Virus record (IMG/VR): IMGVR_UViG_3300043409_001840
Span: 1 to 25,947 of that record
From: a virus
Strand: one strand, 5' to 3'
DNA: 25,947 nt
Within the stretch, counting starts at the first letter, position 1; each line of letters starts with the position of its first letter. Positions 1,534 through 22,458 of the stretch are shown one piece after another. Position numbers and translations under genes: made by a program. The notes under the pieces were generated by a model, which saw nothing but the letters and a program-made list of their open reading frames with translations, was not told the origin of the DNA and searched no databases.

Positions 1534-3063
1534 GTGTCAAGTATTACGCCTAATCTAAGACTCAGGCTGTCCGAGAATTTGACTGCCGACGCTCGCTATA
1601 ACCTAGAGAGGATTGACCTTGTCGGGTCCATCGTCCAACTAGATGATAGTCAGAGCGCGGCAGTCGCCTCTCTTTCCTCTATTAATCTACTTCCCAACGC
1701 CCCCAGTAAGGGTGGCAGTGGTAGCGGTGGTACCGTCTATGTCGGTTCCGCCTCTCAATTATCTAATCTTCTAGTATACGGAACTATTACAGGGGATTTG
1801 TCTGGCAGTGCCACAAGTTTCACCGGTCCTCTTTTAGGGGATATTATTGGAACCCAAGGGGCCACCGCCATAGCTCCGGGCGTTATTGTAAATGGAGATA
1901 TAAATGCCGCAGCGGCTATTGCAGGAAGCAAAATATCGCCTGTATTCACTGGCCTGGTGGAGTCTGGACCACAAGGATTCCTTATCCGTAATGGTTCGTA
2001 CTCTACGAGCCTTCTCCCAGGTAATTCGCAACTTGCTGATGTAAGCCTGAAGCTGCCCATCACAGACGGCCTCCCTAACCAGGTACTCACCACTGACGGC
2101 AGCGGTAATCTATCCTTCTCCAGTCCAGGCGCGGGGACAGTAACCAGTGTGGGCCTAGTCCTACCTGCCATGTTCACCGTAAGCAACTCTCCTGTAACCC
2201 TATCCGGCGACCTAACCGCCGTCCTGGCTACCCAGAGCGCCAAGGCTGTACTAGCAGGGCCTGTTTCAGGTGCCGCAGCGGTCCCTACCTTCCGTCAACT
2301 ATCAGCTGATGACCTGACAGACGGCAGTACCAACAGGTTCTACTCTGACAGCCTCTTTGCTATCAGCCTCAGTACCCGTACAACCACCAATCTGGCTGAG
2401 GGTACCAATGAGTACCACACCACTGCCAGGGCCAGGACAGCTGCGGTAGTTAATAGCACAGCAGGCACAGAGACTGACCAGGCCCCCAGCGTCTCCTCAA
2501 TTAAAAGCTATATCGCTGGCCTGACCACCTCTGATATAGCCGAGGGTACTAATCTCTACCATACTGACCTCAGGGCTCAGGACGCAGCCGGTGCCTTGGT
2601 AGCCGATACCGCCACCGCCCAGCTGGATTATATCTCTGGCACATCCTTCTCTGTCACCGTCCTGCCGCAGGGCCTTATTAATAGCGTCTCAGGCATAGCG
2701 GAATCGGGCGGCATACTTAGCGTATCCCCCGTTGACGCCACCGCCAAGACTACCCCAATCGCCACTGATATCCTGCTGATTGCTGACAGTGCATCCAGTA
2801 ACGCCTTGAAAAAAATTACGCTGGCTGATATTGTTACCCTGGCCGGAAACGGATTCTCTGATACATGGGTCTCAGGAACAACCAAGGCAGTGGCTCACGG
2901 CCTAGGAACCAGAAATGTAATGGTTGAGGTATTCGATAATGTTACCTATGAGACCGTATACCTGGATAGCGTAGTGAGAACAGACACTAACACAGTAACA
3001 CTTACGGCCAGTGTGGCCCCATCAGGAAGCGGCCTCACCGTGCTCGTTAAAAGGATAGCCTAG
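1534..3063 (+). CDS. Tail fibre protein (509 aa)
   Basis: Receptor-binding or stem fibre built of modules common in phage fibres. The GTG start at 1534 is preceded by AGGA (1523-1526) at seven bases. Residues 1-60 are polar and may be the virion-attachment part. Residues 60-66 are a Gly/Ser linker. Residues 118-135 (IVNGDINAAAAIAGSKI) are a fibre-stem motif also seen as IVDADIKAAAGIVYSKL in the next gene. Residues 200-262 (GTVTSVGLVLP to RQLSADDL) match a very common tail-fibre module. Residues 258-350 hold three imperfect repeats (DLTDGSTNRFYSD, NLAEGTNEYHTT, DIAEGTNLYHTD). Residues 447-509 form a C-terminal beta domain (VAHGLGTRNVMVEVFD to VLVKRIA) widespread at fibre ends. The function is secure at the level of fibre; the receptor is unknown. 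Confidence 0.85.
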   Translation: MSSITPNLRLRLSENLTADARYNLERIDLVGSIVQLDDSQSAAVASLSSINLLPNAPSKGGSGSGGTVYVGSASQLSNLLVYGTITGDLSGSATSFTGPLLGDIIGTQGATAIAPGVIVNGDINAAAAIAGSKISPVFTGLVESGPQGFLIRNGSYSTSLLPGNSQLADVSLKLPITDGLPNQVLTTDGSGNLSFSSPGAGTVTSVGLVLPAMFTVSNSPVTLSGDLTAVLATQSAKAVLAGPVSGAAAVPTFRQLSADDLTDGSTNRFYSDSLFAISLSTRTTTNLAEGTNEYHTTARARTAAVVNSTAGTETDQAPSVSSIKSYIAGLTTSDIAEGTNLYHTDLRAQDAAGALVADTATAQLDYISGTSFSVTVLPQGLINSVSGIAESGGILSVSPVDATAKTTPIATDILLIADSASSNALKKITLADIVTLAGNGFSDTWVSGTTKAVAHGLGTRNVMVEVFDNVTYETVYLDSVVRTDTNTVTLTASVAPSGSGLTVLVKRIA

Positions 3064-3065
3064 TA

Positions 3066-5045
3066 ATGAAAATTCTTGGTACTATATCAGAACTTGTAAA
3101 GGTAATCCTTCGCAAGTCTACCTATGAGGTCACAGTACAGCCTAGTACAGTTACCGCAGATACAACATTCGAGCTGCCAGCAGCAGGCGGTGGCACAAAG
3201 GCTATTGTAACAGCCGATAGTTCAGCTACCCTCACTAACAAGACAATTGACAGCGATAGTAATACTATAACTAATATAGTGGATGCCGACATCAAGGCAG
3301 CCGCCGGTATTGTATATTCCAAATTAAGTATTGCCGACGGCGACCTTACTATAGCTAAGACCTCTGGACTACAGACGGCCCTGGATAGCAAGGTAGACGA
3401 AAATCTCCCCATCACTGGTGCCACGAAAACAAAGATTACCTACGACGCCAAGGGTCTAGTAACAGCCGGTGCCGACATCGCTAATACAGACATGCCAGAA
3501 GACATCGCCAGAAGCAAGCTGGCCCCGGGAACGGCTAATCATGTCCTCATTAATGATGGCACGGGTGAGATTACTAGCGAGGCGCAGCTGGCTACTAGCC
3601 GGGGCGGAACCGGGGTAAACTCCACGGCCACCTTTCCCTCCACCGGCACGGTAGTTACTAGGGATGCCACAGAGACACTTCTCAATAAGACAACCGTATC
3701 CTCTACCGGAGCGGCAACGGGTGCCCTGACCCTTCCTACAGGTAATACGAGCGACAGGACCGGCCTTACCACAACGGGCATGGTTCGCTTTAATACTAGC
3801 CTAACATCCTTTGAGGGCTATGATGGCACTACATGGTCAGGTATTGGTGGAGGAGGAACCACTGACCGCGTTACCCAGGCCTCCCACGCCTTTGTGGTTG
3901 GCAATGTTCTGTACCTGAATGGCGCAACCTATGCCAAGGCTAGGTCTGACGTAGCCAATACCGCCGAGGTAGTCGGTATGGTCAGTCGCGTTATTGATGC
4001 CAATACCTTTGAGATTACCCTGAGTGGGGAGGTATCAGGACTTACTGGCCTCACGGCTGGTGAGGTCTATTTCCTTTCTCCCATTACAGCTGGTGATGTC
4101 ACGGCCACTGAGCCTAGTGTCGTGGGACAGGTATCGCTGCCGGTAGGTATCGCCAGCAGTACCACCACCATGTATGTCCAGCCTAAAAGGGGCGTATTAG
4201 TTGGCGCTACTAACGTCAGGACACAGATTGCCCTGGCGGCATCGGCTACTACTACGGTGCAGAATGTATCGGCGTACGACGCCGGGGAACTCTCTGGCTA
4301 TGTAATAATTAATGCCACGGCATCACTTCGTTTCTTTGTGAATGCACAGTTCTCCAGGAATGGCGCAGGAACTAACTACAATGTTAGCTATCAGGCCAGC
4401 GGTGATATGCCGCCAGCTGGCTTTCAGATTACGATTACAGCCGCCGGACTACTTCAGGTAGTAATGCCCAGTGTTGCAGGATTCACCAGCGCCGCTATCA
4501 CATACGGCCTGGACGTGGCCGCCGTAGGCGCGACACTCCCACTGAGTATCTCGGCCAGAGCTGTTCTTGGTGATGTATCAGGGACGGCGGTACCGGCGGG
4601 GTATATTGGGGAAGTTATAACTTCCAGCGTGACTACTGCCACAAATGTTGGCACTACAGGACAATATTTTAATTTAACTTCAATCACGTTAACGCCCGGA
4701 ACTTATCTGATTAATGCTTCAGCAAAATACAATAGAAATTCTGCAACATTTAGTTCAGTAGATTTAGAAATTGGTTTCAGCGCAACTACCGGAAATTCAT
4801 CTACTGGGCTTGTTACTGGTGTGAGTTTGATTGAAAAAGTACAAGATGTTGGCCTTACGTTTACACAAACACCAATTTCTATGCCTACGGTTTACCTTAG
4901 ATATGACGGAACAACTGCAACAATACAAAACGGCGGAACATTAACGCCAACCGGCGGTGTTTTTTATCTAAAAGGATATTGCGGTGTATATTCTGCCGCT
5001 ACTCCGCAATATTATTGCACTGTAACAGCAGTCCGTATCGCATAA
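3066..5045 (+). CDS. Tail fibre protein with exchangeable tip (659 aa)
   Basis: Long fibre whose start ATG (3066) lies two bases after the stop of the previous fibre gene; AAGGA at 3051-3055 inside that gene can serve as ribosome binding site. Stem region: TLTNKTIDSDSNTITNIV (56-72), AAAGIVYSKL (78-87), LTIAKTSGLQTALDSKV (94-110), ITYDAKGLVTAGADI (124-138). A TTTGMVRFNTSLTSFEGYDG module (236-254) is typical of tail fibres ahead of a head domain. Residues 260-500 are beta-rich. Residues 503-659 form a tip domain opening GDVSGTAVPAGYIGE and ending AVRIA. That opening and end recur in the small gene at 5870, while the centres differ. The DNA of the tip centre is visibly richer in A/T than the rest of the gene, suggesting recent exchange. 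Probable receptor-binding fibre. Confidence 0.85.
   Translation: MKILGTISELVKVILRKSTYEVTVQPSTVTADTTFELPAAGGGTKAIVTADSSATLTNKTIDSDSNTITNIVDADIKAAAGIVYSKLSIADGDLTIAKTSGLQTALDSKVDENLPITGATKTKITYDAKGLVTAGADIANTDMPEDIARSKLAPGTANHVLINDGTGEITSEAQLATSRGGTGVNSTATFPSTGTVVTRDATETLLNKTTVSSTGAATGALTLPTGNTSDRTGLTTTGMVRFNTSLTSFEGYDGTTWSGIGGGGTTDRVTQASHAFVVGNVLYLNGATYAKARSDVANTAEVVGMVSRVIDANTFEITLSGEVSGLTGLTAGEVYFLSPITAGDVTATEPSVVGQVSLPVGIASSTTTMYVQPKRGVLVGATNVRTQIALAASATTTVQNVSAYDAGELSGYVIINATASLRFFVNAQFSRNGAGTNYNVSYQASGDMPPAGFQITITAAGLLQVVMPSVAGFTSAAITYGLDVAAVGATLPLSISARAVLGDVSGTAVPAGYIGEVITSSVTTATNVGTTGQYFNLTSITLTPGTYLINASAKYNRNSATFSSVDLEIGFSATTGNSSTGLVTGVSLIEKVQDVGLTFTQTPISMPTVYLRYDGTTATIQNGGTLTPTGGVFYLKGYCGVYSAATPQYYCTVTAVRIA
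4581..4612 (+). repeat. Tip-cassette left flank, copy 1
   Basis: 32 bases encoding GTAVPAGYIGE at the start of the fibre tip. They match copy 2 (5906-5937) at 30 of 32 positions, same orientation and same reading frame. Copy 2 is 1325 bases downstream. Confidence 0.95.
5028..5041 (+). repeat. Tip-cassette right flank, copy 1
   Basis: GCAGTCCGTATCGC at the 3' end of the fibre gene, encoding the terminal AVRIA. It matches copy 2 (6299-6312) at 13 of 14 positions. With the left flank it brackets a 415-base divergent centre. Confidence 0.9.
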
Positions 5046-5869: not shown

Positions 5870-6316
5870 ATGACACAGAAACAATTGCTACAGGGTGCGG
5901 GGGATGGGACGGCGGTTCCGGCGGGATATATTGGGGAGAAAATTTCATCTGTTGTTACAAATGCAACGGCACCTGCTACCGGAACTGGCTTTGTTGAAAT
6001 AGTTGCTAGAACCATTACTTTAAGTAGAGGTAGTTATATTGCTTTAGCCTATGTTGCGCCAAGTGGCTTTACTGGAAATGTAGGATTACTTGATGTATTT
6101 ATAAATTCCGGCACAAATTCTCCATCTGTTTCTGGCGGCGTAAGAGGCTCATCATACTCACCGGCAAATGTTATTCTGGCCGCAAACTGCACTGCTTTTA
6201 TCCTAGTAACTGCGGATAGTTCAACTATAACCCTAAGCTGTCGTGCAACGTCAAGTAGTACAATGAGCGGTACGGTAAGTTTAGGCTCAGACTTTCAAGC
6301 AGTTCGTATCGCCTAG
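5870..6316 (+). CDS. Stand-alone fibre-tip protein (148 aa)
   Basis: A free-standing copy of the tip module found at the end of the 659-residue fibre. The ATG at 5870 has AAGGA (5859-5863) at six bases. After about 12 leader residues (MTQKQLLQGAGD) comes GTAVPAGYIGE, then a beta-rich domain (about 22-143), then the terminal AVRIA. The flanks are shared with the big fibre at DNA level, while the centre (5938-6298) has no evident close similarity to the fibre's centre beyond the general fold pattern. It has no stem, so it must either trimerise on another fibre, act as an accessory adhesin, or be a reserve cassette. The centre is A/T-rich relative to neighbouring genes. Confidence 0.75.
   Translation: MTQKQLLQGAGDGTAVPAGYIGEKISSVVTNATAPATGTGFVEIVARTITLSRGSYIALAYVAPSGFTGNVGLLDVFINSGTNSPSVSGGVRGSSYSPANVILAANCTAFILVTADSSTITLSCRATSSSTMSGTVSLGSDFQAVRIA
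5906..5937 (+). repeat. Tip-cassette left flank, copy 2
   Basis: Direct repeat of 4581-4612, differing at two bases (T for A at 5917, A for G at 5926); both changes keep the encoded residues. Confidence 0.95.
6299..6312 (+). repeat. Tip-cassette right flank, copy 2
   Basis: GCAGTTCGTATCGC at the end of the stand-alone tip gene, a direct repeat of 5028-5041 with one silent change. With the left flank it brackets a 361-base centre. Confidence 0.9.
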
Positions 6317-7787: not shown

Positions 7788-8762
7788 GTGGCCAGACGAC
7801 TTACCACCGAGGACCTCGTAGCAGAGGTTCGCTCGATGATAGACGAATCTAATATTACGTCCGTTCGCGATGAGGAGGATATTATTCCTGCCCTTAATCG
7901 TGGACAGGACATGGCGGCTAATATTCTAGCACGCCATTATGAGGCCCCATTACTAGTACACCAAGATGTAGCCCTCACGGCGGGACAGTCTGAGTATCCC
8001 ATACCAGAGGATGCCTTCGAGCAGCGCCTGGAGAAGATAGAGGTAAGGGTTAATAACCTGTTCTATCCCGTAAAAAGAATTGATTATCGGGACTCCAGCG
8101 CCTACGAGAGCCTGAACCTAAAGACCAATGTACCCTACTACTACACCGTAGTCGGTAATAAGTACCGCCTACTCCCGTCACCTACCGCCACATACCCACT
8201 TCGTATCTGGTTCCTAAAGGACCCTGAGCCGCTCGTAAAGAGTCAGGGCCGCATCACCTTTATCAAGGCCGACCAGAATTATATTATCCTGGACGCGGTA
8301 GGCTCATCTCTCACCGTATCAAATGCGGAGTTGAACTGTTACGCCAATCTAATTGATGGTCAGACAGGAGAGGTAAAGGCAACAATGCAGATTTCTAATA
8401 TCCAGGGCAATAAGATTACCTTTAAGAGTGTCTTTGGCCCTAATGACCGCACCACCGTTCTCAATAAAACAATCAGCAGTGACCTCTCCACCGTCTCCGT
8501 ACAGCCAGACGATTTCATTTGTACGATTCACGGCAGCTGTATCCCTATCATGAAGAAGCCCTTCAGTAACTATATCATTCAGTATGCCGTGGCAGAGATG
8601 CAGCGCAAATTGGGCGGCCCGGCTGATATGGAACTTAAGGTAAAGCAGGACCTAGAGGTTGTCGTGGAGAGAAGCTGGGTCGGAAGAGAGACCTCCCTTC
8701 GCGTATCTCGGGCCAATAGGAATTGGGAAGTACCACCAAGAAGATACTACGATGGCCGATAG
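7788..8762 (+). CDS. Head-tail adaptor protein (324 aa)
   Basis: Probable connector/adaptor that bridges portal and tail, comparable in role to T7 gp11 or P22 gp4. The GTG at 7788 has AAGGA (7777-7781) at six bases. The N-terminal helices (TTEDLVAEVRSMIDESNI, 6-23; DIIPALNRGQDMAANILARH, 31-50) are the pattern seen in adaptor proteins, followed by a beta section (SEYPIPEDAFE and RLEKIEVRVN) and a strand-loop part with YYYTVVGNKYRLLPSP. The C-terminal half is longer than in gp11-like proteins and ends in a basic helix and tail (RANRNWEVPPRRYYDGR). It lies two small genes upstream of the nozzle protein, as expected from T7-like order (adaptor then nozzle). Its 3' end overlaps the next gene by 11 bases. 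Confidence 0.65.
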   Translation: MARRLTTEDLVAEVRSMIDESNITSVRDEEDIIPALNRGQDMAANILARHYEAPLLVHQDVALTAGQSEYPIPEDAFEQRLEKIEVRVNNLFYPVKRIDYRDSSAYESLNLKTNVPYYYTVVGNKYRLLPSPTATYPLRIWFLKDPEPLVKSQGRITFIKADQNYIILDAVGSSLTVSNAELNCYANLIDGQTGEVKATMQISNIQGNKITFKSVFGPNDRTTVLNKTISSDLSTVSVQPDDFICTIHGSCIPIMKKPFSNYIIQYAVAEMQRKLGGPADMELKVKQDLEVVVERSWVGRETSLRVSRANRNWEVPPRRYYDGR

Positions 8763-9031: not shown

Positions 9032-9757
9032 ATGGCGCAAAAGAAAACAGGAAAAGAAAAAAAAGAAAGTCCAAATCTTTATCCAAGAAATTTAGGTAAA
9101 CTTGTAAGAAGGCAGCGTGATAAGGGGCCCCCAGGACCTACATATGAGGACGCTGAACTTCATAAAAAAATTTCAGAATTAATAGAGGATGAGGACACCT
9201 CAGACTTCTTACGTGCGTCAAGACCTTGGGGCAAGAATAATAACGAGGATGCTGAGTTGGAGCAGGTAAGGTCTCGCTCGAAGTATTTTAATAAGATACC
9301 ACAGGACCTTGATAGAAATGAGGCATATACCACATTAGAAAACCTTAAGAATAAAGGCGATGCAAAACTTTTAGAAAAACTTAGAACTTTTGAAAACCTT
9401 AGAAATAAGGGGATGCCACTAAAAGACGCCGCTAATCAAGTTGGCGACCTAGATGTAATGTCACAATATGATGGTCTGGATAATGAGTACGTAGGTGAGG
9501 AGGTTTCAGCCAGGGGCGACGGTTATGGCGCATATAAGTCACCAGTTGACCGAGCTATGGATAAAGCTAATGTTCGTAAAAAAGAAGTTCAAGATAATCC
9601 AGGATACTATAAAGCCAACCCTGACTATCTTGAACAAGAAGCAGGTCGTCAAGAAGACCTAGAAGAGTTTATTCAATTTTATGACTCTACAGCGGTTGTA
9701 CCAAAGATTAAATCTTCTAATAAATCCAGCAAACCAAAGTCAAAGCCAAAAAAATAA
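9032..9757 (+). CDS. A/T-rich hypothetical protein (241 aa)
   Basis: No family recognised. The ATG at 9032 follows the previous stop by one base, with no clear ribosome binding site. The protein is hydrophilic with Lys-rich ends (MAQKKTGKEKKESP and SSNKSSKPKSKPKK), a helical middle containing two similar pieces (TLENLKNKGDAKLLEKL, 102-118, and TFENLRNKGMPLKDAANQV, 119-137), and no membrane segment. Codon use differs from its neighbours: many AAA, CTT, TTA and GAA codons, versus AAG, CTC/CTG and GAG in the adaptor and nozzle genes. This suggests a recently acquired accessory gene inserted between the adaptor and the nozzle. Confidence 0.65.
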   Translation: MAQKKTGKEKKESPNLYPRNLGKLVRRQRDKGPPGPTYEDAELHKKISELIEDEDTSDFLRASRPWGKNNNEDAELEQVRSRSKYFNKIPQDLDRNEAYTTLENLKNKGDAKLLEKLRTFENLRNKGMPLKDAANQVGDLDVMSQYDGLDNEYVGEEVSARGDGYGAYKSPVDRAMDKANVRKKEVQDNPGYYKANPDYLEQEAGRQEDLEEFIQFYDSTAVVPKIKSSNKSSKPKSKPKK

Positions 9758-9772
9758 TCTAAGGCATTCTCC

Positions 9773-12700
9773 GTGGCCATGAATTTCATCACCGTTAGTG
9801 AGTCTGACCTGGGCGCGGGTATTGACCAGCAATCGGCAGAGAGTAGGATTCAGCCAGGATTCTCTGAGGACCTGGTTAATGTGGACCCACAGGCCGAGGG
9901 CTATCTGGCCAAGCGTCCGGGATACCAGGGCGTGGCTGGCTACATGCCGGTCCGCGTATCCTCTATTCAGTACAGCGGCACCTCTCTTTGTTTCACCCTA
10001 GATGGCTCAGTTGACCTCACTGGCGTTACCAGTAGCCCTATCGTGGTCTATGGTAGGACCAGTGGCAGTCCTGTTACTAATCTCCCATTTCAGCCATACA
10101 GTAGCGCCGTCCCTAATAAAGGGGAGTACTTCCCCTCATTCGAGGTGGATGATAAGAAGATATTACTAGCGGCCAATACCTCTCTCGTTATTCCTGCCAC
10201 CGAGCATGGACAGTCAGGACTCTTCCTAGTAAAACTATTCAAACCTACAGTCGGCCCTACGGGGAATGAGTCAGTTGGTATAAGTAGCTACGAGATTGAT
10301 ACTGGCACCAATGCCCTCACCCTAAATTACGGCGTGGCCGTCGATACCCCTATCTATATCTCATACCGCTCTTTGGCCTCCGTTCCCGGCAGTGTCTATG
10401 TACATCCCGTGGTAACTGCGACCACTGTCACCATACCAGCCGCTACCCACGGCCTATCAAATTACAATATAATTACAGATTTCTATGAGGTTACAGGGGC
10501 GGTATACGAGAGCATAGAGCCGGACAGCCTAACGGTGAGTACCACGGGAGAGGTGGTGGCTACCTTTAGTCAGTCGGTTAATGTCGTGGTCGTTCTCCGC
10601 TCCGTTCCATTCTCTCAGCAGGAAATTATTACTATACCCTCTATAGGTCCAGGCACCGCTACTATAAATAATATAGCCGGTCACTACCTGGATTCTCAGG
10701 TCTATGTTAGGACTGCGGCAAATCCTGGAGTCCTTGAGCAGGTTCTCTTGGATAGTATTGTTGTTAATACCTCGAACAATACCGCCGTACTGAGTTGGAC
10801 CAATTACGTTCCCTTTACTGAGGCCGTGGTCTTCTATGAGCCTATCTCAATCCTCTCTAATAAACTCTGTGTTAATATTAGCACCCTTACTAAAGTATTT
10901 ACGGCCAGCGGCAGTACAGTAAGCACGGTTGATGATAGAATAACTATTGCCAGCCACGGATTTACTAATGGTCAACTTGTAACATTTTCTGGTAGTAATC
11001 TTCCGGCACCACTCAATACCACTACTACCTATAATATACAAGTATTTGATGTTAACGAATTCTATGTTTACAACGGGTCTACTCTAGTAGACCTTACCAC
11101 CACAGGCTCTGGTCAAGTATCAATAATATTGCAGGGAGAGGACCTATCCCCACAGCTGACTATATGGGGCCTTAAGCACGCAGAGATTTACGGGGATAAT
11201 CCAACCGAGGACCGAGTAGGCTGGACCACACATATAGATAGCTATAGGGCGGCTGGCAATAACAGGGTGGTAGCTGGCCTTGGCGGCAATCTGTATGGTG
11301 AGTATAATACCCTAGAGCTAAGTGCCGACTATAAATTACCAACGCTATACACTAACCTAAGAGCACGGGCCCTTAATACTACTCGACTGGCACCGGCATT
11401 CTTTGGTCTCAGTACCCCTAACCCAAGTCTCTCTCGCACAGACGGCTGGTATCAGTTTACTGGTGGAGAGCAGGGACTGGCCGTTGCCACCTCAGCCGAG
11501 TGGATTAGTGGCACCCAGGTCAAGTACACCCTCTCCGCCCCATTCGTACAATCCTCTGCTATTAGTGATGTTACTGACCAGCAACTAACCATTACCCAGT
11601 CAGCTAATCCCAAGAACTCTGGCGTATTCAATATTCTGTCCATTTCTGTCACCGGCATGCTGGCTGCGGCCAAGATAGAGATAGTGGTCAATAATCCTCT
11701 CCGCACCAGTACAGATGATGATGAGGTGGGTAGCGGGATGCAGGCCGGTATCTTTACTGACACCATTCCACTTATCGCTGACAGCCCCTTTTTACCAGGG
11801 GATAGAATTCAGGCGGATAGCTTTGGGGATGAGGAGCTACTCACGGTTACCTCTAGTACTGCTACTCGGGTAGTTATTAGCGGACTCGCCAGTAGTCTAT
11901 ACCTACAGGGTGGTCAGCGTATAATCGGACAGCGCACCTCTCGCATCCTTCCGCTTAGGGACGCCCTAGAAGCCCCAACGGTGGAGAACCTGGTGCGTGG
12001 TGACATGCTATCAGTTAGCGGAATAGATAGAAAATTACGGGTTGAGTACATTAATACCCTATCAGATGATGTTGTTTCTATCACTAATGACACCATTACC
12101 TCTGTATCCAGCACCTCGGGATATGTGGTAGGTCAATTAATTGAGCTGGTCAGGGCAGGAAATTGGAGCGGTACCTGGGCTATCTCTGAGATTGTAAGTA
12201 CCACCAGCCTAAAAATAGATTGCGACCTGGTCGGCAACGCGCCAAACGGGTCCACCATCTTGGGTAAGACCGTGCAGCTGGATGAGGAGTTTCAGTTTAG
12301 CGATACGGTTAACAGCATTGTGGCGGTGCAGGTGAGTAGTCGCTGGGTTCCCCTTGAGGCACCAGATGATGAGTTCTCCCTAACACCTACCACCCATGAG
12401 AATTACTTCCCGGCCAATACCCCCGGCAGTCAGCCTATCCTAAAGAGCGCCATGGTCTCTGACAACATGTACTTTAGTAATGGCGATGATAGCGTTATGA
12501 AGTGGGATGGCAGTGCCCTGGTACGCGCTGGCCTTCCTAACTGGCAGCCACAGATGTTCGTGGCCACTGACAGTGCGGCTAGCGAGAGGATTGCACTTAA
12601 CCTGTCCAATGTACTAACATCGGAACAGCGTCCTCTTGATATATCCAGTACCGGGTCCGTGTTTAAGTTAGCGCATTATTCCTCCGGTGTTTTTCAAATC

Positions 12701-15184
12701 GGTGATGTGGTAGAAATTTACAGATGTCTCAGCGCTACGCCCAATGTGCCTATTGTACCTTTATTAGGCGGCACTGACGGTACAGTGAGGGCTAAGATTA
12801 CAAAAATATGGATTGATAGTTCATCAAGCGCCCACGACTATATTCAGGTTGAGTATTTTGGAAACCTAAATACCGAGCTGGGGTCTGCTCTCTTATCTGG
12901 TAGTCAAAATTTTAATATCAGAGAGACCACCACCTACCGCTACTACTTTCGTCTATCGGCCCTGGATAACAATGATAACCTGATAGCCAGCGCCGTTACA
13001 GGCGTGGATGACTGTGTAGTAGAAACCTCCATAGATACGCAAATCAAGTTGCGTCTCAGTAGAATGCCAGTCTGGGACATTTACGACTATGATAAACTTG
13101 AGCTACAGGTATACCGAACCAAGAAGAATGGCGTAGCACCATACTACCTCCTGCAATCCATACCACTTAAGTTTAATCTTAATGAGCAGTATATAGATTT
13201 CATTGATACCAGAAATGACGATACCCTTAATCAGCTGGATGATGTGTCCACATCCCTAGAGGGTGCCGAGCTCGGTACTCAGTGGTCAGCCCCACTCCGT
13301 AGTAGATATATTACCAGTGCCGGTAACAGGCTGGTGCAGGGCAATATTACTAATGACCCTATCATAGATATTCAGGTACAGAAAAATGAAGGCGATACGG
13401 CTATTCAAGACTCTTACTTCACCGGTGAGATTATTACCCTTAGAAGAGATAATAATAACCCGTCCTCGACAAGTGATGGTGAGAATGTACAACGCTTCCA
13501 GTTTGTGAATTCTGGCGTTACTATTAACACTACCTCTATTGCCGCCGGTGTTGTCACGATTACTACGGCAACCGGTATCTGGACCGCAGGACACTGGGTA
13601 TACCTCTATAGGGAGGGAGTACAGGACGGCATGCACCTGGATATATCTGGCTGGTACAAGATAGCCACCGGAGGGACTGGCACCTTTACTATCAATACCA
13701 ACCTATCCTCGCTTACCGCGCTGGCTAATACGGCCAATCGAGTGGCCAGGGCCTCCGACGGCCTGGATGTCCCGGTCTATATTAAATCTGATGATGGCAA
13801 CTACGCGACTGTCGTGGGCAATACGCCAGTCGTAGAGCTGCGGGCAATGATGCGCCTGTCTCAGGCTATTAATGCCCAGCAGACGGTGGCGACAAGTCCC
13901 TGGATGCTAGCCACGGCGGGCAACCTGATTGGTAATGGCAGGATTATTATATCACAGCCCCGGGTAGTAGACACCATCCTGGAATTAGATGTTGACGCAG
14001 GACTTACCACCAAGATGCAGCTATTCGCCAATGGACTCAAAATACCGAGGACCGTAGCAGGTAGTGCCGTGTACACCGCAGGCGCGGTAGAGTATGAATA
14101 TCCTAGCCGAATCCTTATCTCGTACCCTAACTTCCCGGAAATATTTAGTAATCCCACGGCAGCGGTTGACAGCGAATCCGTTTCTGTGATAGATGTTAAT
14201 AGTGCTGATGGTCAGCAAATAACCGGCATCATTCCATTCTTTGGGGAGTCGGCCTTCGGGGCGGCTCAGAAAAGTGGCGTGGTTGTGGTCTTCAAGACTA
14301 ACAGCATATACCTGATTGATATCTCCGCGAAGGCGGCGGGTGTTAATCCGGTGCAACGTATTGAATCCCAAGGCCTGGGATGTACGGCCCCTCACTCCAT
14401 AGCCAATACTAGAGATGGTATTGTGTTCGCGAATGAGTCAGGCCTCTACCGACTGGGCAGAAACCTGGCGATTGAGTACGTTGGTCAGAAGATAGAGCGG
14501 GTCTGGAGGGAGCGAGTTAATCTCTCCCAGCTGGACCGGGTGTTTGGTCACCATTACGGCACGGGCAGCCAGTACAAGGTCTCCGTTCCGTTAGATGGCA
14601 ACACGACACCAGGCGACCTTTTGGTCTATTCGCACGTTCGAGAATACCGGGGCGGATTCGGTGCCTGGACTCGGTATTCCAACCATCCGGCTATAGGATG
14701 GGCTAATCTTTTCTCGGACGCCTACTTTGCCACAACCGACGGGCAGGTAATGAGTGTTCGGAGGACCGGGGGGACCTCTGATTACCGAGACGATGCCCAA
14801 CCAATTAGTATGAGGGCTCTCCTTAGGGCTCTCGACTTTGGCGATTCTGGTATCAGGAAGTCAGTCCGCTTCCTGGTAGTGAAGTTTCGCGTGGTGGCCG
14901 ACACCTCCTCTACCCTTCTGTTCACCGCCAGGGACCTGGTGGATAACTTTGAGGAGACGGATGCCTTCTCCCTGGACGATACCCGCAATAATATCACCGG
15001 ACTACAGGACCCTAACCGGGTAAAGATAAAGTCCATCAGATTCTCTCCCAAAGAAAAAGAATGCATCTATTTCCAGGCCCTTATAACTAATGAGGAATTG
15101 GACCAACCCGTTGAGATTGTTGAGATTTCGTACCGCATTACAGGCATGACTGACAAGGGTATGGAAGAGGCAGCCGAAACCTAG
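9773..15184 (+). CDS. Tail nozzle / stabilisation-type protein, very large (1803 aa)
   Basis: Candidate tail-tip conduit protein in the role of T7 gp12 or P22 gp10. The GTG start at 9773 has AAGG (9761-9764) at eight bases; an alternative ATG at 9779 is too far from it. Residues 14-50 carry the nozzle-type opening: GAGIDQQSAESRIQPGFSED, then NVDPQAEGYLAKRPG. Residues 137-358 contain three tandem fibre-like domains, and 388-450 a further beta module (IASHGFTNGQLVTFSG). The core resumes around 480-520 (AGNNRVVAGLGGNLYGEYN). Later parts show VYRTKKNG (about 1120), RYITSAGNRLVQGNI, VVVFKTNSIYLIDI (about 1505), SQGLGCTAPHSIANTRDGI, FANESGLYRL and GGFGAWTRYSNHPAIGW, a propeller-like C-terminal part. 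At more than twice the length of T7 gp12 it carries extra domains. Fit to this role is good but based on pattern only. Confidence 0.75.
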   Translation: MAMNFITVSESDLGAGIDQQSAESRIQPGFSEDLVNVDPQAEGYLAKRPGYQGVAGYMPVRVSSIQYSGTSLCFTLDGSVDLTGVTSSPIVVYGRTSGSPVTNLPFQPYSSAVPNKGEYFPSFEVDDKKILLAANTSLVIPATEHGQSGLFLVKLFKPTVGPTGNESVGISSYEIDTGTNALTLNYGVAVDTPIYISYRSLASVPGSVYVHPVVTATTVTIPAATHGLSNYNIITDFYEVTGAVYESIEPDSLTVSTTGEVVATFSQSVNVVVVLRSVPFSQQEIITIPSIGPGTATINNIAGHYLDSQVYVRTAANPGVLEQVLLDSIVVNTSNNTAVLSWTNYVPFTEAVVFYEPISILSNKLCVNISTLTKVFTASGSTVSTVDDRITIASHGFTNGQLVTFSGSNLPAPLNTTTTYNIQVFDVNEFYVYNGSTLVDLTTTGSGQVSIILQGEDLSPQLTIWGLKHAEIYGDNPTEDRVGWTTHIDSYRAAGNNRVVAGLGGNLYGEYNTLELSADYKLPTLYTNLRARALNTTRLAPAFFGLSTPNPSLSRTDGWYQFTGGEQGLAVATSAEWISGTQVKYTLSAPFVQSSAISDVTDQQLTITQSANPKNSGVFNILSISVTGMLAAAKIEIVVNNPLRTSTDDDEVGSGMQAGIFTDTIPLIADSPFLPGDRIQADSFGDEELLTVTSSTATRVVISGLASSLYLQGGQRIIGQRTSRILPLRDALEAPTVENLVRGDMLSVSGIDRKLRVEYINTLSDDVVSITNDTITSVSSTSGYVVGQLIELVRAGNWSGTWAISEIVSTTSLKIDCDLVGNAPNGSTILGKTVQLDEEFQFSDTVNSIVAVQVSSRWVPLEAPDDEFSLTPTTHENYFPANTPGSQPILKSAMVSDNMYFSNGDDSVMKWDGSALVRAGLPNWQPQMFVATDSAASERIALNLSNVLTSEQRPLDISSTGSVFKLAHYSSGVFQIGDVVEIYRCLSATPNVPIVPLLGGTDGTVRAKITKIWIDSSSSAHDYIQVEYFGNLNTELGSALLSGSQNFNIRETTTYRYYFRLSALDNNDNLIASAVTGVDDCVVETSIDTQIKLRLSRMPVWDIYDYDKLELQVYRTKKNGVAPYYLLQSIPLKFNLNEQYIDFIDTRNDDTLNQLDDVSTSLEGAELGTQWSAPLRSRYITSAGNRLVQGNITNDPIIDIQVQKNEGDTAIQDSYFTGEIITLRRDNNNPSSTSDGENVQRFQFVNSGVTINTTSIAAGVVTITTATGIWTAGHWVYLYREGVQDGMHLDISGWYKIATGGTGTFTINTNLSSLTALANTANRVARASDGLDVPVYIKSDDGNYATVVGNTPVVELRAMMRLSQAINAQQTVATSPWMLATAGNLIGNGRIIISQPRVVDTILELDVDAGLTTKMQLFANGLKIPRTVAGSAVYTAGAVEYEYPSRILISYPNFPEIFSNPTAAVDSESVSVIDVNSADGQQITGIIPFFGESAFGAAQKSGVVVVFKTNSIYLIDISAKAAGVNPVQRIESQGLGCTAPHSIANTRDGIVFANESGLYRLGRNLAIEYVGQKIERVWRERVNLSQLDRVFGHHYGTGSQYKVSVPLDGNTTPGDLLVYSHVREYRGGFGAWTRYSNHPAIGWANLFSDAYFATTDGQVMSVRRTGGTSDYRDDAQPISMRALLRALDFGDSGIRKSVRFLVVKFRVVADTSSTLLFTARDLVDNFEETDAFSLDDTRNNITGLQDPNRVKIKSIRFSPKEKECIYFQALITNEELDQPVEIVEISYRITGMTDKGMEEAAET
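10181..10846 (+). repeat. Three tandem fibre-like domain repeats inside the nozzle gene
   Basis: Protein-level repeats at residues 137-200 (10181-10372), 217-278 (10421-10606) and 294-358 (10652-10846). Shared plan: a short strand with IPA or similar and an H-G or G-H pair, then a hydrophobic strand, a D/E-S-I/L-x-V strand and a terminal hydrophobic strand. The second copy (IPAATHGLSNYNIITDFYEV) resembles the fibre's AVAHGLGTRNVMVEVFD. DNA identity between copies is low, so these are old or fast-diverging. Confidence 0.6.
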
Positions 15185-19536: not shown

Positions 19537-21765
19537 ATGGCTACTGAATTTCAAAAGGCAAGCAGGGGAAAGATAGTATCAGATACTCCCGCAATACAAG
19601 AATTTGAGCGGATTAAGGAGGAGGCCTCAATCGAGGCAGCCGCCGCACGCGCCGGGAAATCACCCGAAGAGATTAAGGCTGAGGCCAAGGCTGCCGGTAC
19701 GGACCCTATCAGCTGGATTAAGGATAAGTATCCGCCACCGGGGATGCCTAAAAAGCCAGCCGAGAGAGCGCCCGCCGAGCCCGTGGCTGACCAGATAGAG
19801 ACACCAGAAGAGAAGGCCACAAGGCTACAGAAAATTCAGAGACAGATAAAAGCAGGCACCTATAATCCGGTTGAGGGAATTGCCGCAAGCCTTGGTGTAC
19901 CTGAAGAGGCCGCCCCAAAAACCGTTGCCGAGACAGTAAAAAAGGCAGCTAAAGAAAAGAAAAAGGCAGAGGCCGCTCCACTTGTACAGGAGGCTCCGAC
20001 GGTAGCCGAGCAGGTCAAGAGTGGCGCAGCCCTTAAAAAAGAGCAGGCGGCCATTCGTAGTGCCATTACCTCAGCCCCACAGTTCGCTATTATTACCGCT
20101 GAAAGTCCAAGGGGGGAGACCGTCCCAGGCGGTAATGAGGCCCTTAGGAAAGAGCTTGAGGCCAGGGGGTATAAGTTTGAGCAGATGGAAGGAATGTATG
20201 GTGGTAAAGAAAATCCATTCCTAGTACAGACAGATAAACTCTCAGACATTCAGAGTCTCGGTAAGAAGTATGGCCAGGAATCTGTTATCCTTGCAGATAA
20301 TAATAAGTACAAGATGCAGTTCACCAGCGGGCCGCAAGAGGGTCAGTTTTACACAGCCAACACTATTACTCAACACGCCACCCCGCCCAAGGATTATTAC
20401 TCAACCGTGGTTAGGGATGGCAAGCCGGTTCATTTTACCATAGACTTTGATATGGAAAAATTAAAAGGGAAACCTGTGGCGCAGGCTAAGGCTCCGGCGC
20501 AGGCTTTGGCTAAGGTAGTTGGACCAGAGGCACCACCACCGGCTACGGGTGTCGAGCAGGTAGCCAACGCGGAACGTCGCACACAGGCCGAGGGAGTCAA
20601 AAAGTTACTTATTGAGCAGGGAGTACCTCCACAGGAAGCCCTTGCGCAGGCAGAGACCGTGGTGACCGGTGCGGAGAAGGCTGCCTCAAAGACCGGCAGT
20701 AGTCTAAAAGATATCATACAAAATAATGTCAAGACAGCATTCAGGGTTGCCTCAGAGAATCCTAAGACATCACTTGCCGCCGCCCTGGTAGGCCTTGCCT
20801 CTGCTGGTTTAATGGCAACCGGAGAAAAGGATAAGACTCCTCCACCAGTATCTCCGCCAACGCCACCAGCTGAAAAGAAAAAAGAATCGGTAGAGCCCCC
20901 ACCGGCTGTAGTAAAGACAGTTAAAGAGGGAGATGACACACTGACCGAGTTTGAGGCATATAAGAAGAAGATGTCACTCACCGATACCGAAAAAGAGAAA
21001 TTTGCAGGGATTGAGGAACGCCTGAAAGATTCTTTGGATTCCGCCAAGGATGCCTACTCCAAGGGAATGAGAAGCACTGAGCTATACAAGGCCTTTGAAA
21101 AAATAGCCGAGGGTCTGGCCCTATACGGCGCAGGACTGTATGGCAAGAAGAGTGGAATTGATGCCGTTAGCGGACTGAAGTTTAGTCCCATTGATTGGTC
21201 TACTCGAACGGATAGACTGACCAAGGAGTTGGATATGGCTGACAGGTCCTATACCAAGGGTATGGAGACGGTTAAGGAAGAGAAGCGCGGTATTGAGAAA
21301 TTGCGGGAAGAGGCCGTTAAGTTCGAGGAGGGCCGCAAGGAGCGCGAGGAGAAGCGGGCGGAAAGACTTGGAACCAAGCAGACCGCGGCGGAGGAAAAGG
21401 TTGCAAAGGGCCAGAAAGAGATTCTGATGGGAAGGATTAAGGACCTAGATAGGCAGATTAATGATATTGAAAAGGTTAGGACCTCAACGCCCAAGTCTGG
21501 TGATGCCATGGAAAGGCAGTACAAGGCCCTGGCCACTACCCTAAAAATCCCTGAGACTGAGTTCATGACCGGAATGCTTGGTGGATTTAGGGAGGGAGCG
21601 GCTGATGCGGCATTCCTAAAGAAGCAGCAAGAACTTACAGCAACACGGGACCGGCTTGAGAAAGAGTTGCGGGGAGAACCCGGTCAGGCGCAGCCAGTCT
21701 CAGGACTTACACCAACACAAGAAGCTAGAAGACAAGAACTACTACGCAAGCAAGCTGGTAAATAA
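19537..21765 (+). CDS. Internal virion protein with DUF3293-like domain (742 aa)
   Basis: The ATG at 19537 follows AGGA (19526-19529). Residues 1-180 are Lys/Glu/Ala/Pro-rich and low complexity. Residues 182-305 form a globular domain resembling DUF3293 proteins: FAIITAESPRGE, NEALRKELEARGYKF, EGMYGGKENPFLV, LGKKYGQESVILAD, then YYSTVVRDGKPVHFTI. DUF3293 has no established function to my knowledge. A hydrophobic segment (411-428, TSLAAALVGLASAGLMAT) is followed by a Pro-rich stretch (434-456) and helical parts (NDIEKVR and similar, about 556-645). The C terminus (VSGLTPTQEARRQELLRKQ, 721-739) resembles the motif at the start of the next two proteins. It is probably a core or ejection protein; the domain's job there is unknown. 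Confidence 0.65.
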   Translation: MATEFQKASRGKIVSDTPAIQEFERIKEEASIEAAAARAGKSPEEIKAEAKAAGTDPISWIKDKYPPPGMPKKPAERAPAEPVADQIETPEEKATRLQKIQRQIKAGTYNPVEGIAASLGVPEEAAPKTVAETVKKAAKEKKKAEAAPLVQEAPTVAEQVKSGAALKKEQAAIRSAITSAPQFAIITAESPRGETVPGGNEALRKELEARGYKFEQMEGMYGGKENPFLVQTDKLSDIQSLGKKYGQESVILADNNKYKMQFTSGPQEGQFYTANTITQHATPPKDYYSTVVRDGKPVHFTIDFDMEKLKGKPVAQAKAPAQALAKVVGPEAPPPATGVEQVANAERRTQAEGVKKLLIEQGVPPQEALAQAETVVTGAEKAASKTGSSLKDIIQNNVKTAFRVASENPKTSLAAALVGLASAGLMATGEKDKTPPPVSPPTPPAEKKKESVEPPPAVVKTVKEGDDTLTEFEAYKKKMSLTDTEKEKFAGIEERLKDSLDSAKDAYSKGMRSTELYKAFEKIAEGLALYGAGLYGKKSGIDAVSGLKFSPIDWSTRTDRLTKELDMADRSYTKGMETVKEEKRGIEKLREEAVKFEEGRKEREEKRAERLGTKQTAAEEKVAKGQKEILMGRIKDLDRQINDIEKVRTSTPKSGDAMERQYKALATTLKIPETEFMTGMLGGFREGAADAAFLKKQQELTATRDRLEKELRGEPGQAQPVSGLTPTQEARRQELLRKQAGK

Positions 21766-21768
21766 CTA

Positions 21769-22458
21769 ATGGCCCTTACCCCAGAAGAACAACAAGAATT
21801 AAACCAGCTAAATAAAATGGCATCATATCCTGGGCCAATCTCGGCCTCTACGATAAAGTACGCGCCACAAAATCAAGAAACCTCCCTACTCAAATATGCC
21901 CAGGGAGAGGGCCTGAACAAGAATGAGCTTACGGCCTTTATGGCGCAGGTATCCCACGAGTCAAATGGATTTAGAAACCTGGAAGAAATCGGTGGTGGGA
22001 AAGATACTTACAGTGGTGGCAAGGATTATAAGGGTCGCGGCTATATTCAACTAACCCATGATTATAACTATAAGGCCATGGGCGATAAGCTGGGAATTGA
22101 CTTACTTAATAATCCTGACCTGGCTGCTGACCCAGAGATTGCCAAAAGAATTGCGGTTCAGTGGTGGAAGGATAATGTTAGGCCGGGCGTAAAAGACTGG
22201 AATGATGTATACTCTCATAGCAGACTTGTTAATTATCCAAACGCAACCGGTCCGGAGCAAGTCAAGGGATATGATGAGAGGGTGGCTGAGTTTCAAAAAT
22301 ACCAGAAACAACTCAGGCCGGTTATTGTTGAGGTAAAGGGCGGCCTTTTTAAGATTCCAGCGATTCAGGTACCAGAAGTACTTAACGATTGGCCCGAGGC
22401 ACGTGTGGTACCCAGTTCAACTAGCATAGCATCTGAACGGAAAAGTCAAAGACCATGA
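21769..22458 (+). CDS. GH19-type lysozyme, virion-associated or endolysin (229 aa)
   Basis: Peptidoglycan hydrolase of the glycoside hydrolase family 19 / phage lysozyme type, cleaving glycan strands. Key pattern: FMAQVSHESNGFRNLEEI (57-74), with the putative catalytic acid at Glu64 in HES and Glu72/Glu73 as nearby acidic candidates for the second residue. It continues with YKGRGYIQLTHDYNY (87-101), the family's GRG-x-IQ(L/I)T signature, and IAKRIAVQWWKDNV (124-137). The segment between HES and GRG is only about 22 residues, shorter than in classical GH19 chitinases. Residues 2-17 (ALTPEEQQELNQLNKM) are a motif seen again in the next protein; residues 185-229 are a polar tail. There is no signal peptide. 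The gene lies inside the internal-virion block, separate from the XhlA-like gene, and overlaps the next gene by ATGA, so a virion-borne role during entry seems likelier than classical endolysis. Confidence 0.8.
   Translation: MALTPEEQQELNQLNKMASYPGPISASTIKYAPQNQETSLLKYAQGEGLNKNELTAFMAQVSHESNGFRNLEEIGGGKDTYSGGKDYKGRGYIQLTHDYNYKAMGDKLGIDLLNNPDLAADPEIAKRIAVQWWKDNVRPGVKDWNDVYSHSRLVNYPNATGPEQVKGYDERVAEFQKYQKQLRPVIVEVKGGLFKIPAIQVPEVLNDWPEARVVPSSTSIASERKSQRP

Follow-up and report, generated by a model that had tools for sequence, protein, structure and literature searches.

Which domains stand ahead of the core of a large phage tail protein, where did they come from and what may they do there? The question is raised by a stretch of viral DNA of 25,947 nucleotides (the window, taken at its whole length from IMG/VR record IMGVR_UViG_3300043409_001840). 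In the initial annotation, it was proposed that fibre-like domains had been inserted between the opening and the core of its nozzle protein, so that the tail would be decorated with further modules. Extra binding or stability from such modules is possible. The protein, its core and a neighbouring gene are placed as follows.

7788..8762, + strand: SU10-type head-to-tail adaptor (Pfam SU10_adaptor 5.3e-13, 50.3 bits against a cut-off of 27)
9773..15184, + strand: ORF of the nozzle (tail-tip) protein, 1803 residues, with a predicted core resembling known nozzle structures
12452..15145, + strand: predicted nozzle core (propeller and platform), residues ~894-1791, delimited by VIA-align and HMM alignment

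P22 gp10, T7 gp12, SU10 gp17 and the crAss001 muzzle belong to a superfamily of hexameric nozzles. The window protein was folded with AlphaFold2 as two pieces, residues 1-560 and 604-1803, and the model of the second piece, which holds the core, had a mean pLDDT of 69. When this core model was searched with Foldseek, phage tail or nozzle chains took the top 16 places (7e-13 to 2e-4). The best match was the crAss001 muzzle gp44 (PDB 7qol; 7e-13), and SU10 gp17 (PDB 7z47, 7z4f) and cyanophage A4 (1e-9 each), P22 gp10 (1e-8) and T7 gp12 (5e-6) were also found. VIA comparisons with nozzle chains gave Z scores of 10.7-16.4, with crAss001, SU10 (13.4) and P22 at 13-16; the best alignment joined core-model residues 292-1187 to P22 gp10 residues 99-472 (Z 16.4). 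The model predicts a core of beta-propeller plus platform, and the gene lies near the adaptor gene and the fibre genes, all of them upstream. A 553-residue 'phage stabilization protein' also aligned by HMM with the nozzle profile, in the N-terminal segment (~16-53) and in the C-terminal core (~1470-1760), with ~160 residues between the two aligned blocks compared to ~1400 in the nozzle. As had been annotated, the predicted structure identifies the 1803-residue protein as the tail nozzle of a short-tailed phage, in the superfamily of P22 gp10, T7 gp12, SU10 gp17 and the crAss001 muzzle.

No match was found among annotated phages for the adaptor, or for the whole nozzle by tblastn; nor did the nozzle have any hit in sequence-profile searches of solved structures, SU10 gp17 included. 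The best matches of the nozzle model in BFVD were uncharacterized phage proteins. PHROG 5107, labelled 'amidase', matches the nozzle core; because the match lies within the propeller region and the label is probably an artefact of the annotation of this PHROG, no enzyme was inferred and that role was set aside. Further internal repeats, forming a second and weaker family, are present in the nozzle (residues ~601-700, 751-850, 951-1050 and 1251-1350; hhalign up to 78%), and one relative has a match to Pfam End_beta_barrel, an endosialidase beta barrel, in its nozzle core (E 2e-4). Directly before the nozzle gene lies an ORF of 241 residues (9032-9757). It has no counterpart of at least 100 residues listed in one of the two nearest relatives (L002), and a different ORF of 161 residues takes its place in the other (L001). 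Among the virion genes, 21769-22458 encodes a chitinase-like protein (Glyco_hydro_19, 1.1e-14), probably a cell-wall hydrolase, and residues 200-280 of the large protein encoded at 19537-21765 show a weak match, below the cut-off, to S-AdoMet_lyase and DUF3293.

The modules occupy window positions 10181-10846, which correspond to residues 137-358 of the nozzle ORF, exactly where they had been annotated.

10181..10372, + strand: module 1, residues 137-200 (hhalign against module 2 96.3%; pLDDT mostly 79-93)
10421..10606, + strand: module 2, residues 217-278, of the three the most similar to the fibre tip (identified by hhalign; pLDDT mostly 92-96)
10652..10846, + strand: module 3, residues 294-358 (hhalign against modules 1 and 2 88.4 and 96.3%; pLDDT 83-91)

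The hhalign profiles were built from up to 16 sequences for each nozzle module and from eight fibre C termini for the fibre. As controls, the flanks and 16 other windows of the nozzle were compared; their highest values were 3.7% against the modules and 15% against the fibre profile. In an all-against-all comparison of 36 overlapping nozzle windows and two external profiles (667 pairs), the top five pairs were all module-module or module-fibre. AlphaFold2 (residues 1-560, 16 sequences) modelled the module blocks mostly at pLDDT 80-96, while residues 1-58 and 474-560 were of low confidence. The order of elements was similar in each copy, with a strand at the start and four or five strands at the end; in copies 1 and 2 a short helix stands in between, at the H-G turn. 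Profile comparison and structure prediction thus both bear out the repeat, with similarity detected among the copies and three beta domains of like order, and the profiles identify residues 137-358 as three diverged copies of one module. These tandem beta-sandwich modules probably arose through duplication. With the single nozzle sequence as query, Pfam, NCBIfam and PHROG yielded no useful match for the modules, and a profile search of solved structures with module 2 gave no credible match.

The other partner in the comparison is the end of a fibre encoded upstream.

2872..3060, + strand: C-terminal tip module of the 509-residue fibre (profile match to module 2, PDB 9nx3 and PHROG 2647)

The motifs on which the likeness had been based are present, THGL...YESIEPDSLTV in copy 2 and AHGLG...YETVYLDSVV in the fibre. 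When the last 68 residues of the fibre were compared with the nozzle by BLASTP, residues 220-266 ranked first (E 9e-5, single sequences). The Smith-Waterman score was matched by 4 of 2000 shuffled fibre ends, and other 75-residue windows of the fibre scored lower against the module region (60 compared to 43 for the next, which overlaps the fibre end). With profiles, module 2 matched the fibre C terminus at 86.2%, whereas copies 1 and 3 had no direct hhalign match to it (1.4 and 0.7%) and are therefore tied to the fibre through copy 2 only. The annotated likeness to fibre-type domains consequently holds directly for copy 2 and at one remove for its neighbours, and the profiles make the fibre C terminus a relative of the nozzle modules, closest to copy 2.

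This module is found beyond nozzles and fibres. When the module-2 profile was run against 1807 ORFs, all matches other than nozzles were fibre proteins, and they were C-terminal save for one weak extra stretch. The fibre C-terminal profile matched residues 173-240 of a capsid decoration protein (PDB 9nx3, E 5e-6; a literature search on this entry found no relevant paper), the head decoration family PHROG 2647 (E 3e-13, best among relatives) and PHROG families of virion structural proteins. Module 2 itself gave weak matches, for single family members, to PHROG 21918 (E 3e-4) and PHROG 2647 (E 0.04). Since a decoration structure and these PHROG families are matched, the module is one used on several virion proteins, and the likeness of nozzle and fibre is best read as that of a widely shared phage module which head-decoration proteins also carry. 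PDB 9nx3 and PHROG 2647 have one C-terminal copy on a head protein, whereas the nozzle has three internal copies in tandem, and we therefore call the nozzle modules relatives rather than members of the fibre-tip and decoration families.

The fibre itself is mosaic. The fibre of the window (1534-3063, 509 residues) and its counterpart in L002 (2076-4355, 759 residues) share both ends and differ in the middle of the protein. The C-terminal part of a fibre-like protein of 659 residues (3066-5045) and a protein of 148 residues (5870-6316) have a common domain starting with G-T-A-V-P-A-G-Y-I-G-E, and both proteins end with A-V-R-I-A.

The conserved C-terminal region of the nozzle (A2) served as the query of a scan that gave 17 viral contigs. 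Three contigs were excluded: L004 duplicates the contig L002, and the nozzle ORFs of L007 and L008 agree with that of L006 in length and ends. The alignment then comprised 16 nozzle sequences, the window included. Every full-length relative of the nozzle has 1672-2047 residues. The three copies are in register in all 16 sequences, although identity to the window over the first 560 residues drops to 24% among them. Because they are present throughout, the modules are constitutive, and the alignment marks them as a standing part of the nozzle family and no insertion peculiar to the window phage. With a mean pairwise identity of 27%, compared to 35 and 41% for the flanks and 52% for the core, they are the fastest-diverging part measured. 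Between the window and L002 their dN/dS is ~0.22, indicating purifying selection; fast divergence together with purifying selection is expected for exposed structural domains.

Additions to the array were nevertheless seen in the window nozzle and in the largest relative, L015 (2047 residues).

10889..11128, + strand: FCCH-like module, residues ~373-452 (~80 residues), absent in L001 and L002
L015:4014-4994: extra cassette, nozzle residues 383-709; its last copy, the sixth, encloses an FCCH-like module

The FCCH-like module of the window lies after module 3 and ahead of the next conserved block, outside the array of three. Its likeness to the E1_FCCH-like modules of phage tail proteins is weak (Pfam E1_FCCH, PF16190, E 0.005, under the Pfam cut-off). 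L011 has a related module between its first two copies and L015 has one within copy 6, whereas L014, L016 and L017 carry theirs in the nozzle core; for the L014 module, further matches were obtained to fibre, tube and sheath proteins from other phages. By sequence comparison, it is this FCCH-like module, and not the three fibre-like modules, that is the demonstrable recent insertion in the window nozzle. The L015 nozzle has six copies, three of them after the usual three. Copies 4-6 were best assigned to modules 1, 2 and 3 in order (18.2, 40.8 and 19.2 bits, with profiles built without L015; the best of 1000 shuffles gave 8.5, 11.4 and 8.8 bits), the preference of copy 4 for module 1 over module 2 being weak in hhalign (57 compared to 52%). 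This order suggests a block duplication of the three-module cassette.

Ig-like domains are a known feature of nozzles, as both SU10 gp17 and the crAss001 muzzle have them. In SU10 gp17, four Ig-like nozzle domains lie between propeller blades 2 and 3, nozzle domain 4 including residues 303-308, and they change from an L shape to a straight form when the genome is released (PMC9509320). The crAss001 muzzle is likewise a large protein with Ig-like domains within its propeller, IG1 being located between blades 2 and 3 (PMC10172136). The window modules sit between the N-terminal segment (~16-53) and the propeller core. In the VIA alignments, residue ~291 of the core model (residue ~894 of the protein) was paired with SU10 residue 541 and P22 residue ~99. 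This puts the modules in a stretch of chain for which SU10 has many residues and P22 few. With ~99 residues before the matching point, compared to ~893 in the window protein, P22 gp10 has no room for the modules, and the stretch is short in the 553-residue homologue too. The annotated insertion between opening and core thus stands as a location and as an expansion relative to P22 gp10, but not as an event specific to this phage, since all 16 nozzles have the modules.

Like SU10, the window genome has an SU10-type adaptor and a nozzle with a long stretch before the main propeller body that contains several Ig-like domains, here three beta modules of high pLDDT. SU10 gp17 differs in its size (~910-920 modelled residues with four nozzle domains, compared to 1803 residues) and in that no sequence similarity was found. 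IG1 and IG2 of crAss001, like the individual SU10 domains, are at most possible homologues of the modules, and the distal 'crass fold' of that muzzle was not identified in the window nozzle. The Foldseek and VIA matches of the N-terminal model were weak and mixed beta-sandwich matches and were rejected as evidence of family: cyanophage A4 alone was below 1e-3, TM-scores were low, the SU10 nozzle domains gave no clear match, and single modules scored Z 5-8, the range of any beta sandwich. Since the chain was folded in two pieces, it is by inference that we place the modules between blades 2 and 3, at the insertion point used in SU10 and crAss001. The Ig-like nozzle domains of these two phages are the probable counterparts of the modules.

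We give a probability of about 0.7 to the reading that the modules are the Ig-like distal domains of the nozzle, in identity and in placement. They would belong to a small Ig-like family that is also found on fibre tips and capsid decoration proteins, and would occupy the stretch ahead of the main propeller as the inserted Ig-like domains of SU10 and crAss001 do, probably doing the same job. At the distal end of the tail tip they would face outwards and, in the virion, pack around the tail outlet, between adjacent nozzle subunits and fibres; they may also contact the cell surface. At genome release they may swing or extend as in SU10, a movement in which we have less confidence than in identity and placement.

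Could modules and fibre be alike through convergence, as generic sequences that are beta-rich and T/V-rich? Phage proteins rich in T, V and S are numerous here, and the similarity of single sequences is modest, as the shuffled fibre ends show. However, the module pairs stand at 88-96% against the control values from the same protein, confident non-nozzle matches of the module-2 profile among the 1807 ORFs were fibre C termini only, and PHROGs 21918 and 2647 are matched by both the module-2 and the fibre profiles. Convergence is therefore very improbable, and chance similarity was rejected. We consider it just as improbable that the modules were inserted in the lineage of the window phage from its own fibre gene. 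The window fibre does match module 2 of the window significantly, but the modules are in register in all relatives, the fibre is as similar or more similar to module 2 of other phages, and only copy 2 resembles it directly. Moreover, nozzle-fibre module pairs of the same genome are no more alike than pairs across genomes, which disfavours recent copying between the two genes; recent transfer from the fibre of the same genome was rejected.

The main rival, that the modules are fibre-type receptor- or carbohydrate-binding domains which add adhesion at the tail tip, is a good deal less likely than Ig-like distal domains, though it deserves more weight than the two origins just discussed. Homology of module 2 to the fibre tip, the fast divergence of the modules, a copy number that can double (L015) and a weak VIA match (Z 4.9) between module 2 and the receptor-binding protein of phage Oekolampad would all suit binding. 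Yet the three are kept together in all 16 relatives, which suits a structural part better than an adhesin subject to change; capsid decoration proteins carry the same module, fibre-module similarity shows no excess within genomes, and no binding site was identified. Somewhat more doubtful still is the idea of a single mobile Ig-like module at work in the nozzles, fibre tips and capsid decoration of tailed phages alike, with the number of tandem copies in this nozzle family setting the reach of the opened tail tip as a length adjuster.

As Ig-like distal domains, the modules are a variation on the nozzle domains already known from SU10 and crAss001. The finding provides a link at the sequence level between domains inserted in nozzles and the module of fibre tips and decoration proteins. 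In addition, the family shows a domain array that grows by what looks like block duplication, in L015, and that gains FCCH-like modules at varied places. With such growth and uptake, it can be asked by what means short-tailed phages extend or refit the tip of their tail.
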